Of a DNA stretch of 64,000 nt, positions 36,369 through 39,403 are shown piece by piece (position 1 is the stretch's first letter; every line of letters begins with the position of its first letter). Location of the stretch: NCBI GenBank assembly GCA_003220345.1, contig QHSC01000087.1, positions 76,497 through 140,496 on the forward strand. The letters run 5' to 3'. The stretch comes from Candidatus Rokuibacteriota bacterium (GTDB lineage Bacteria > Methylomirabilota > Methylomirabilia > Rokubacteriales > CSP1-6). The notes under the pieces were generated by a model that was not told where the DNA came from, did not search any database, and worked only from the letters and a program-made list of their open reading frames with translations. The position numbers were made by a program, and so were the translations under genes.

Positions 36369-36797
36369 CTACCAGATGAACCACAGGGCCATCAGGGCCC
36401 CGAGAGTGATTCCGACGTCCGCGAGATTGAAGACCGGCCACCAGCCGATCGCCACAAAATCGAGGACCGCCCCGCGCCGCAGCCGGTCGTAGACGTTGCT
36501 GGCGGCGCCTCCCAGGGCGGCGCCGATGCCGACGTGCGCCGCCGGATGGTGGAAGATGTCTCCCTGACCGATCAGGAAGGCGAAGGTGCTGAGGACCACC
36601 CCCCAGAGGAGAACCAGAGCAATCCGCTTGTCGGGAAGGCGGCGACTTCGAGACGGCTTCATGGCGCAGCGGAGCCGGACACACCAGACCACCGCCGCGG
36701 ACGATCCATTCGCCAAACGCCTGGTCACCGCCATTTTCGTGAGCTGGTCGGCCAGCAGCACGAGGATGGCTGGCAGCAACACGGTGATGCTCGTCAT
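36369..36797 (-). CDS. Divergent LspA-like signal peptidase II
   Basis: LLADQLTKMAVTRRL...GGAASNVYDRLRRGAVLDFVAIGWWPVFNLADVGITLGAL: both catalytic Asp contexts retained; 142 aa, canonical NxGAAF region not recognisable. Confidence 0.85.
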   Translation of the reverse strand: MTSITVLLPAILVLLADQLTKMAVTRRLANGSSAAVVWCVRLRCAMKPSRSRRLPDKRIALVLLWGVVLSTFAFLIGQGDIFHHPAAHVGIGAALGGAASNVYDRLRRGAVLDFVAIGWWPVFNLADVGITLGALMALWFIW

Positions 36798-36874
36798 GCT
36801 TTCCTCACTGCTCCGCGCTCCTTTCGGTCATGGGCCCGCGCCGAGGTCGGCGCGGGCCCGGTCCGCAACGGTTG

Positions 36875-37432
36875 CTAGCCGCGGCGCTGCTGTGGATCGA
36901 CCCTCGGCGGCTCCCCGAGGGGACGCGGGGCCGGGCACGCCTGATACGCGCAGGGAGGCGGAGCCACTTGCGGCGGGCAGCACTCTTCGATCTGCTTGCG
37001 GAGGGCCTCCTCCCGCTGACGGGTGAGCGCGGCCTCGGCGTGGGTGGCCGCATACAGCTCGGCGAGCGCCGTAGTGCTGTTCCTGATGGTCGTTTGAAGC
37101 CCGGTCTGCGTGTGCGACTCGTTCAGCAATTCACAGGTGTTCCTGGAGATGTGCTCGAGGATGCAGATCATCGTGTCGTTCTGCGCGGCATTCTGAGCCA
37201 GGGCCTGGTTCGTGTAGTTTCCGATGGTGATGAGCTGGGCAAATCCCCAGTTGAGCGTGGTGTTGACGTCCTGGATCGACTTGGTCACCTGGTCCAGCTT
37301 CGCCTTGACATCGTCGAGACGGGCATTTGTTCCGTCGAGGCGGGTATGCACACCTCCCAGACGATTGTTCACCTCGTCCAGGCGGCCGTTCGCTCCATTG
37401 ACGGCGTTGAGGACGTCCTGCGCAGATGCCAT
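36875..37432 (-). CDS. Heptad-repeat coiled-coil protein with Cys/Pro-rich tail
   Basis: NGRLDEV NNRLGGV HTRLDGT NARLDDV KAKLDQV TKSIQDV NTTLNWG; tail IEECCPPQVAPPPCAYQACPAPRP. Confidence 0.65.
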   Translation of the reverse strand: MASAQDVLNAVNGANGRLDEVNNRLGGVHTRLDGTNARLDDVKAKLDQVTKSIQDVNTTLNWGFAQLITIGNYTNQALAQNAAQNDTMICILEHISRNTCELLNESHTQTGLQTTIRNSTTALAELYAATHAEAALTRQREEALRKQIEECCPPQVAPPPCAYQACPAPRPLGEPPRVDPQQRRG

Positions 37433-37513
37433 GGGGGAATTACCTCCTCGTGGGTGTGCGTCGGTCCACGTCGGCCGGCGCGGGTGACATCGAACGACGA
37501 CCTCGCGTGGTAC

Positions 37514-38608
37514 TTACAGTTGCAGCCCGGCACATACGCGCGTCCCCGGACAGCTCCCGATGGACATGGCCTTGTTGTAGATGGCGACCTCCTGGATCCT
37601 TCCCTTGAACGGGTGATAGACAGGCATGGCGCTGCCGACCGGGGGACGATGCATCCCGATCAAAAGGGACTTCGTTGAATCAGTGACCGGGCTGTAGCTC
37701 GCGGTCGTATCCTTCACGGGATGGGCGACACCGGAGTCCAAGTCGATACCGCGAACATACACGTAGAAATTGAGCTTCTTCGTCGGAGCGTCGTAGGTAA
37801 CGGCGAGATAGTTGGTCTTGGTGAAATCGACGGGCGTGAAGGGTCTGGCGGGGTCGTCCGGGGTCGCCTCGTCCTGGATCGGCTTGAACGTCGTGCCGTC
37901 GCCCAACCAGACCTGCCAAACAGGCGAGCCGCTCGCGGTCCCGGGAACCGGCCCTGAGAAGAGACCGAAGCCAAAGGCAGTTGGTGTTGCCGGGGGCGGC
38001 GGCACAGCTATGGTGTTGAACGCGAACACCGTCCGGTAGCGGCCCGATTCGGCTGGGTCATTCGGATCCCAGTCAGGGCGTACCAGAGCCTCGATAGTGA
38101 AGCTGTTGAGCAGGAGAGAATTACTGAACGGCACTTCCACATAGCCGCCATCGACATTGAGTGCGGTGCTCTGCTGTCCGGTAAGCTCCAGCAGCCCTGG
38201 TGCTTCGAGTGAAAGGAGGCCAGGGGCAGCCGGTGAATCCGAGAGGTTGGGAGCGGGTGGAGGGGGCGGAGGGGGCGCTGGCGGCTGAACCTTGACGCTC
38301 TTGTACGTGCCGTTGTTGGCGCCTTTCTCGTCTTTTGCTGTGCCTCCGGCCGTGACCGTGTTGGGAGCGGGAACTGCGGGACCCGTGGGAGGCTCCGCCG
38401 CGTGCTTCTCCTGAAGCCGCCAGTACGAAACCGGATTGTCCTTCAGCACGGTGCCCGGATAGTCGGCCACCGGATCCCCTGTCGGCCCGAGCTTTGTCTC
38501 GACGGTTGGATTCTCACCCGCGGTAAACGCTGTACAGCCGATGAAACGAAACAGCAGCAAGACGGCCAGCACGGCGAGCGGCGTAGTCAAGAAGTACCAG
38601 TCGCTCAT
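37514..38608 (-). CDS. LamG/concanavalin A-like domain protein, putative lipoprotein with Pro-rich linker
   Basis: MSDWYFLTTPLAVLAVLLLFRFIGCTAF; PPAPPPPPPPAP; DGGYVEVPFSNSLLLNSFTIEALVRPDWDP...LAVTYDAPTKKLNFYVYVRG...FKGRIQEVAIYNKAMS. Confidence 0.75.
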   Translation of the reverse strand: MSDWYFLTTPLAVLAVLLLFRFIGCTAFTAGENPTVETKLGPTGDPVADYPGTVLKDNPVSYWRLQEKHAAEPPTGPAVPAPNTVTAGGTAKDEKGANNGTYKSVKVQPPAPPPPPPPAPNLSDSPAAPGLLSLEAPGLLELTGQQSTALNVDGGYVEVPFSNSLLLNSFTIEALVRPDWDPNDPAESGRYRTVFAFNTIAVPPPPATPTAFGFGLFSGPVPGTASGSPVWQVWLGDGTTFKPIQDEATPDDPARPFTPVDFTKTNYLAVTYDAPTKKLNFYVYVRGIDLDSGVAHPVKDTTASYSPVTDSTKSLLIGMHRPPVGSAMPVYHPFKGRIQEVAIYNKAMSIGSCPGTRVCAGLQL

Positions 38609-38659
38609 TCGAGTTCTCCCTCTGGCGTAAACGGTTCAGCCGCGCGCCGCGTGGACCGA

Positions 38660-39403
38660 TCACGATCCATGGAAATAGATGACCATCAGACTGGCCGTCG
38701 ACAGCACCACTAAAACGGCGGAGATCACCTGGTGAAGGCGAAAGGCACCCACCGTGTCGATCGTTTCGCGGATCGATTCAAGCCACCACCGCCCCGCCCC
38801 GTAGCCTGCCACCACGATCAGGAAGCAGCTTCCGGCGAAGGGAAGCCGGTTCCACGCTTCGAGGGCGGCGATCAGGAGACACAAGGCGAGGCCCGCCTCG
38901 AGAAGCTGGGCGGGTATGCGACGACACCGCACGCCGTGCTCGTTGGGGAGGTGGAGTCCGAGCTTGCTGTTCGTCTGTCGCCCCCCGCAGCAGCCGTTCA
39001 AGAGGCATCCGAACTTCGTGAAGACCATGCCGATGAGCATGGTGACAATGGTGGCGTCCCAGAATGCGCCCACGGAGATTCCCATCGCTCGAAGCAGCGG
39101 CAACGAGAGCAGGAACGAGACGATGAGGCCTCCATACAAGGACGCTCCCCCGTCGGCCCTGCGCCAGATCCGGATCGGGTCGCGCCGGTAGAAATCCCAA
39201 TTCGAAGCGACGAAGAGCAGTCGTGCCCCGAGCAGAGCAGGCAGGATGAGGAGGAGCATCGACGCGTAGAGGGGCCCAGGGGCGAGACCGTGATGGGTGC
39301 CGGCGTATGTTCCCCCCGTCACGCCAAAGACCAGGCCGAGATACAGCATCGCCGTGTAGGCGTAGACCTTCATCCCGTGCCATTCGAAGAGCACCTGGCG
39401 CAT
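38660..39403 (-). CDS. Lgt-like prolipoprotein diacylglyceryl transferase paralog
   Basis: MRQVLFEWHGMKVYAYTAMLYLGLVFG..., GGASLYGGLIVSF, TKFGCLLNGCCGGRQT, RRIPAQLLEAGLALCLL, GAGRWWLESIRE. Confidence 0.82.
   Translation of the reverse strand: MRQVLFEWHGMKVYAYTAMLYLGLVFGVTGGTYAGTHHGLAPGPLYASMLLLILPALLGARLLFVASNWDFYRRDPIRIWRRADGGASLYGGLIVSFLLSLPLLRAMGISVGAFWDATIVTMLIGMVFTKFGCLLNGCCGGRQTNSKLGLHLPNEHGVRCRRIPAQLLEAGLALCLLIAALEAWNRLPFAGSCFLIVVAGYGAGRWWLESIRETIDTVGAFRLHQVISAVLVVLSTASLMVIYFHGS

Follow-up and report, generated by a model that had tools for sequence, protein, structure and literature searches.

Prolipoprotein diacylglyceryl transferase (Lgt) and signal peptidase II (LspA) are usually regarded as housekeeping enzymes for all lipoproteins in the cell. 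In the window (the whole stretch of 64,000 nucleotides analyzed here), paralogues of both are encoded at the two ends of a group of four genes, together with a LamG (ConA-like) protein and a coiled-coil protein, and this raises the question of whether the pair serves only a few proteins of its own. We consider it probable that the group is a horizontally spread, dedicated maturation module, in which a private Lgt/LspA pair lipidates and cleaves a private signal and thereby displays a small protein with a partner.

The cassette and its genomic setting

The four genes formed a 3-kb cassette between metabolic genes (Table 1), namely those for a UbiD-type decarboxylase and a 3-hydroxyisobutyrate dehydrogenase-type protein (both named from sequence). 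The co-directional arrangement with short gaps described in the earlier note was confirmed: all genes were on the minus strand, the gaps were 51, 81, and 77 bp, and a good Shine-Dalgarno sequence preceded each of the four. A search for a sigma-70-type promoter at the cassette found none. The GC content, judged previously by eye to be lower than that of the flanks, was 63.7%, compared with 68.1% elsewhere in the window (z = -2.4), which puts the cassette in the lowest 1.1% of stretches of its size; GC3 was 73-85% in the cassette versus 90-91% in two flanking genes. No flanking repeats indicating a mobile element were found around the cassette.

Table 1. Positions of the cassette features in the window.
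Feature	Position	Strand	Description
Lgt-like gene	38660-39403	minus	247 aa; PF01790 E=2e-33; divergent GCC-type prolipoprotein diacylglyceryl transferase paralogue
Lgt signature region KFGCLLNGCCGGR	38978-39016	minus	alignment to PDB 5azb and other cassette Lgts; E. coli Lgt has RLGNFINGELWGR
LamG (ConA-like) protein gene	37514-38608	minus	364 aa; N-terminal signal and Pro-rich linker; Laminin_G_3 E=7e-6
Private signal MSDWYFLTTPLAVLAVLLLFRFIGC of the LamG protein	38534-38608	minus	common to 11 proteins in 7 genomes; cross-family profile
Coiled-coil protein gene	36875-37432	minus	185 aa; seven heptads; CILEHIS[RK]NTC helix; Cys/Pro-rich tail
LspA-like gene	36369-36797	minus	142 aa; PF01252 (Peptidase_A8) E=5e-21; signal peptidase II paralogue; dyad D113/D127

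The source genome (G000; 96.6% complete, 7.3% contamination) contained two further Lgt genes of the ordinary type (GRWGNFFNEEAFG), with Pfam scores of 252 and 249 bits versus 116 for the cassette Lgt, and one further LspA (139 bits versus 75 for the cassette LspA). The cassette pair is therefore additional to other copies of both genes, in line with the private pair suggested in the earlier note. Since both ordinary Lgts grouped in the tree with the Lgt of G026, a member of the same class, they look native. A separate Lgt was also found in every other genome with the cassette, that of G096 being a fragment at a contig end.

Lgt-like and LspA-like proteins

The window Lgt and LspA scored above the gathering scores of their Pfam families (116 bits versus 24.9 for PF01790, and 75.8 bits versus 25 for PF01252, respectively) and below the cut-offs of the corresponding NCBIfam equivalogs (72.6 bits versus 118.9 for TIGR00544, and 54.5 bits versus 73.95 for TIGR00077), and both are therefore divergent paralogues. 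The window Lgt was 49, 50, and 45% identical to the cassette Lgts of loci L038, L043, and L044, respectively. The cassette Lgts were compared with E. coli Lgt, using Y26, H103, R143, N146, G154, and R239 as its essential residues. In alignments including PDB 5azb, the equivalents of Y26, G154, Y235, and R239 were kept, as was that of E243 except in G786; on the other hand, N146 and E151 were both replaced by Cys, H103 by Tyr (Phe in two), and R143 by Lys in the window Lgt (Arg in the other cassette Lgts). Because residues essential in E. coli Lgt are thus changed (N146, H103, and, in the window Lgt, R143), activity could be lost or altered. Replacements of N146 and E151 are, however, known in distant Lgts, H103 can be Tyr, Trp, or Phe among Lgt proteins, and the Lgt of Leptospira interrogans with N146C functions partially in E. 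coli (PMC13251419); judging from these residues, activity of the cassette Lgt is plausible. In G676 (1.3 Mb; L092:6671-10665), the one detected Lgt was of the GCC type and lay in the order ileS-lspA-lgt, which suggests that a GCC-type Lgt can be a housekeeping enzyme; this lspA-lgt neighborhood, next to ileS, was accordingly rejected as a cassette.

The catalytic Asp residues (D113 and D127 of the window LspA) were invariant in all seven cassette LspAs and in the housekeeping copy; between the two, the cassette LspAs had five residues fewer than PDB 5dir. In G888 (L091:5726-6142), the LspA-like protein had NLLES where the others had NxxDR, and kept the dyad. In the window LspA, Lys occupied the position of the conserved β-cradle Asn, which contacts both globomycin and myxovirescin (PMC6952399), and a paralogue with this residue altered is relevant to inhibitors of LspA, globomycin among them. 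The loss of the Asn, together with the extra lspA genes documented in producers (PMC8689077), would fit a role of the extra LspA in self-resistance to antibiotics of the globomycin or myxovirescin type. We nevertheless consider this explanation highly improbable, because the neighbors, as read from sequence, look metabolic with no antibiotic-synthesis genes beside the cassette, and because a private Lgt and signal-bearing cargo would be left unexplained.

Recurrence, signal, and partner proteins

An LspA-like gene was found beside an Lgt of this kind in six other genomes (a distant member of the same class, one from Anaerolineae, three from Actinobacteria, and a Methylobacteriaceae MAG), giving seven cassette genomes in all, mostly MAGs. 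In a search of 95 genomes from the same class as the window, a close Lgt was found only in G026 (49% identity), where the gene order was LspA, Lgt, two small proteins, and a 909-aa protein; the LamG query matched only the N-terminus of a neighboring gene there. A GTDB contig scan with the window and G026 Lgts revealed three more loci. L043 (Anaerolineae; G095) encoded LspA, Lgt, a pair of small proteins bearing the signal described below, and the beginning of a large protein; L044 (Actinobacteria; G096) encoded LspA, Lgt, LamG, and an 874-aa protein; and L045 (Methylobacteriaceae MAG; G097) encoded LspA and Lgt and was cut by the contig end. The Lgt of G097 is truncated, and its cargo was on other contigs. 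At L043, genes for desulfoferrodoxin, a ferritin-like protein, and encapsulin (Linocin_M18, 2e-72) were directly upstream of LspA-Lgt in the same direction (L043:156-1896), with 17 bp between the encapsulin and LspA genes; this arrangement was not seen at the other cassette loci.

With a strict Lgt profile, the cassette was found only in G095 among 399 genomes of its phylum, and in three of 398 genomes of the G096 phylum (G096, G786, and G888), that of G888 being on a single 5.0-Mb contig. No cassette was found in 387 genomes of the G097 class by a search that also missed the truncated Lgt of G097 itself. Lgt matches in G108, G116, G298, G326, and G676 had no signal-bearing neighbors and were discarded, and the Lgt of a Streptomyces plasmid, 33% identical to that of L043, was set aside because neither LspA nor LamG is annotated close to it. 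No relatives were found in viral contigs (Lgt and coiled coil), plasmids (coiled coil and large protein), or phages (Lgt).

In a tree with 19 other Lgts, among them those of the same genomes, the six full-length cassette Lgts separated as one branch (100/100). Inside this branch, the Chloroflexota copy grouped with G026 (96/76), followed by the window (93/86), in conflict with the species relationships. This topology, the patchy distribution, and the low GC content together point to horizontal spread of the module, which is thus supported on grounds beyond the base composition that had first led to the proposal of horizontal acquisition.

The LamG protein matched Laminin_G_3 at E=7e-6, slightly below the gathering score, and its L044 homologue matched at 1.2e-14, in agreement with the LamG/ConA fold read from the sequence previously; the N-terminal hydrophobic segment ending in FIGC and the Pro-rich linker noted there were present as well. 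An AlphaFold2 model (pLDDT 47, pTM 0.53) gave weak Foldseek matches to pentraxin/lectin-type folds, which are compatible with LamG without being independent proof. LamG homologues were found beside or with the cassette enzymes at L044, L090, and in G097. Cys25 is the presumed site of both lipid attachment and cleavage.

The N-terminal segment recurred as a signal of the approximate form [D/E]W..L.P....P.VLLF.F[IVA]GC on one to three proteins per genome in all seven cassette genomes (the [D/E]W part being missing in G786 and G097), whereas two control genomes scanned for it gave no significant match. In addition to the window form, variants included MIDWFVLLTPFLLVPIVLLFSFVGC, MDWFTILTPLLVLPIVILFVFIGC, MIDWAVVLTPLLVLPIVLLFRFIGC, MAEWLVLALLVPAIVVPVVLLFGFAGC, and MSAMLLVLLPLGLLAIVSLLCFVGC. 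In all 11 signals, the Cys was preceded by Gly at -1 and Phe at -3, and a Pro was present near position 10. A canonical lipoprotein signal has Leu or Val at -3 and a basic n-region (PMC8689077). By comparison, FIGC of the LamG protein departs from the canonical lipobox [LV][ASTVI][GAS]C, and none of the 11 signals, which have a hydrophobic stretch of ~20 residues, had Lys or Arg in the n-region, the only Arg being near the Cys in two; this leaves the export route and orientation uncertain.

After the Cys, the proteins belonged to four mature families with no mutual BLAST similarity (E < 0.01): LamG (window, G096, G786, and three in G097), two small families each present in both G026 and G095, and a fourth represented by the G888 protein. 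With a profile built from the LamG signals only, each of the five non-LamG signals (2e-10 to 4e-4) scored better than any background ORF (best 0.045) in a set of 3,731 ORFs. The recovery of one signal across unrelated mature families by a cross-family profile argues for an exchangeable sorting signal and not a by-product of homology. The dedicated pair proposed in the earlier note thus gains a new argument: one non-canonical signal on unrelated proteins encoded beside Lgt/LspA. The signal was confined to the cassette in six of the seven genomes; in G097, two other contigs (C144 and C315) together carried three LamG genes with the signal, and a coiled-coil gene resembling that of the window was near each of the three. 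Four further genomes matched in a DNA-pattern search were rejected because their stretches did not encode the signal as a protein motif. G097 (L111, L112, and L121; contigs C144, C315, and C35) encoded at least three LamG proteins, ~72% identical to one another, and four coiled-coil genes, the LamG/coiled-coil pair having multiplied there.

The signal-bearing proteins might also be ordinary lipoproteins handled by the housekeeping enzymes, with the extra Lgt/LspA serving as added capacity or as passengers with the cargo. This would agree with the nearness of FIGC to a lipobox, the retention of a housekeeping Lgt by the cassette genomes, and the altered E. coli-essential residues in the cassette Lgt, but it does not readily account for an Lgt/LspA pair kept beside signal proteins across several phyla, for LspA catalytic Asp residues kept in 7/7, or for a signal conserved among unrelated proteins far beyond ordinary signal-peptide needs; we regard it as unlikely. 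Another explanation, to which we give little credence, is that the segment stays in the membrane permanently as an N-terminal anchor and that the Lgt/LspA homologues have a different task, such as another modification of the Cys or action on a lipid. Whereas a hydrophobic stretch lacking a basic n-region, the exchanges in the Lgt active site, and partners without signal peptides are in line with such an anchor, the invariant Gly-Cys right after that stretch is where Lgt and LspA act, and the LspA dyad is complete.

The partner proteins differed among the cassettes. The coiled-coil protein, found in the window and in G097, had in its window form Leu or Ile at residues 18, 25, 32, 39, 46, 53, and 60, consistent with the at least seven clean heptads and the Cys/Pro-rich tail noted before. 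It was 49% identical to a protein encoded beside the G097 LamG genes, the coil of which was shorter by two heptads (14 residues); the helix given in Table 1 and the tail CCPP...PC.Y..CPAP.P were conserved between them. More distant homologues occurred in two of ~397 other genomes from the order to which G097 belongs (Rhizobiales level), and neither Lgt nor LspA was seen beside these two. These relatives (L119:7867-9659 and L120:7066-8909) adjoined a 177-aa protein and a protein with a HELxHAFH metalloprotease-like motif and a Cys-rich end. G026, G095, G096, G786, and G888 instead had a ~900-aa partner, which was not found in G000; it begins with MAN.LTGDF.AV or similar, and its C-terminus is thioredoxin/ResA-like (1.5e-21 to PDB 2h1a). 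An AlphaFold2 model of this protein was unusable (pLDDT 36), and we claim no fold for its N-terminal part. In G786 (L090:4835-7500), the gene for the ~900-aa partner was split over two overlapping frames (a frameshift or assembly error), and this gene and the LamG gene point toward the LspA-Lgt pair. Thus, the conserved neighborhood anticipated in the earlier note was found in other phyla as an LspA-like gene beside the Lgt gene, but its four-gene arrangement recurred only in part: five genomes had the ~900-aa protein in place of the coiled coil, and three had other small proteins in place of LamG.

Proposed function and comparison with known systems

In the dedicated module that we favor, proteins with the private signal would be inserted into the cytoplasmic membrane, the Lgt of the module would add diacylglycerol to the signal Cys, and its LspA would cut ahead of the lipidated Cys. 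The mature protein would then be displayed by its lipid anchor, in the window as a Pro-rich stalk bearing a lectin-like LamG domain, and the co-encoded partner (the coiled-coil or ~900-aa protein) probably assembles with or services it. No signal peptide was evident in either partner, a point that fits poorly with assembly at the surface. What the sequences show are the genes, their recurrence, the common signal, the separate housekeeping enzymes, and a single Lgt clade; catalysis, lipidation, pairing specificity, surface display, and the role of the partner are what we infer. We propose only tentatively, and with some doubt, that the module is a mobile orthogonal track, in which the cognate Lgt/LspA recognizes only its own non-canonical lipobox and anchors a few lectin-like or other small proteins with dedicated partners independently of the housekeeping enzymes. 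The LamG domain suggests binding to a glycan or ligand, but three cassettes have no LamG protein; a role as an adhesin may be one possibility among several.

If this dedicated module exists, lipoprotein maturation would be divisible into lines that run in parallel and each serve their own substrates, as is the case for other anchors with sortases and exosortases, and bacteria with the cassette would keep a separate anchoring line for a few proteins. It would also offer a natural system for examining what determines substrate choice in Lgt and LspA, and possibly an orthogonal tool to lipid-anchor chosen proteins.

The enzymes themselves belong to known families; in a limited check of the open-access literature, no description of an Lgt/LspA pairing with a private signal was found. 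The cassette shares with the canonical pathway (Lgt, LspA, and Lnt) the Pfam families, the LspA dyad, and a cargo hydrophobic signal ending in Gly-Cys, and differs in having extra copies beside presumed cargo, a signal with Phe at -3 that lacks a basic n-region, and an Lgt with N146C and E151C. N146 is likewise replaced by Cys in the GCC-type Lgts of L. interrogans and Mycobacterium smegmatis (MSMEG_5408), but PMC13251419 does not report these two next to an LspA and private cargo; in a tree without them, the cassette Lgts branched apart from three GCC-type Lgts. The lspA1-lspA2-lgt operon of Myxococcus xanthus resembles the cassette genomes in its lspA-lgt linkage and more than one lspA per genome; in the available part of PMC8689077, lspA1/2 are proposed to be housekeeping genes, lspA3 and lspA4 are in another context, and no private signal is described. 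DAG-RiPPs (dyb cluster) resemble the cassette in that the lipoprotein pathway serves a special product; in the part of PMC12636315 available, maturation by ordinary Lgt/LspA/Lnt is proposed, and neither a private signal nor dedicated paralogues are described.

By analogy, the cassette would work like the dedicated sorting systems PEP-CTERM/exosortase, GlyGly-CTERM/rhombosortase, and MYXO-CTERM/myxosortase, in which a short hydrophobic signal on unrelated proteins is paired with a dedicated membrane enzyme (PMC1569441, PMC3237569, PMC11980579), without being a member of those families. As in these systems, one signal was found on unrelated proteins (four mature families linked by the cross-family profile). 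For its co-occurrence with the enzymes, the genomes scanned were the seven with the cassette, all of which had the signal, and two controls, neither of which gave a significant match. In contrast to these systems, the signal is N-terminal, the enzymes are of the Lgt and LspA families, and each genome has no more than one to three cargo proteins.
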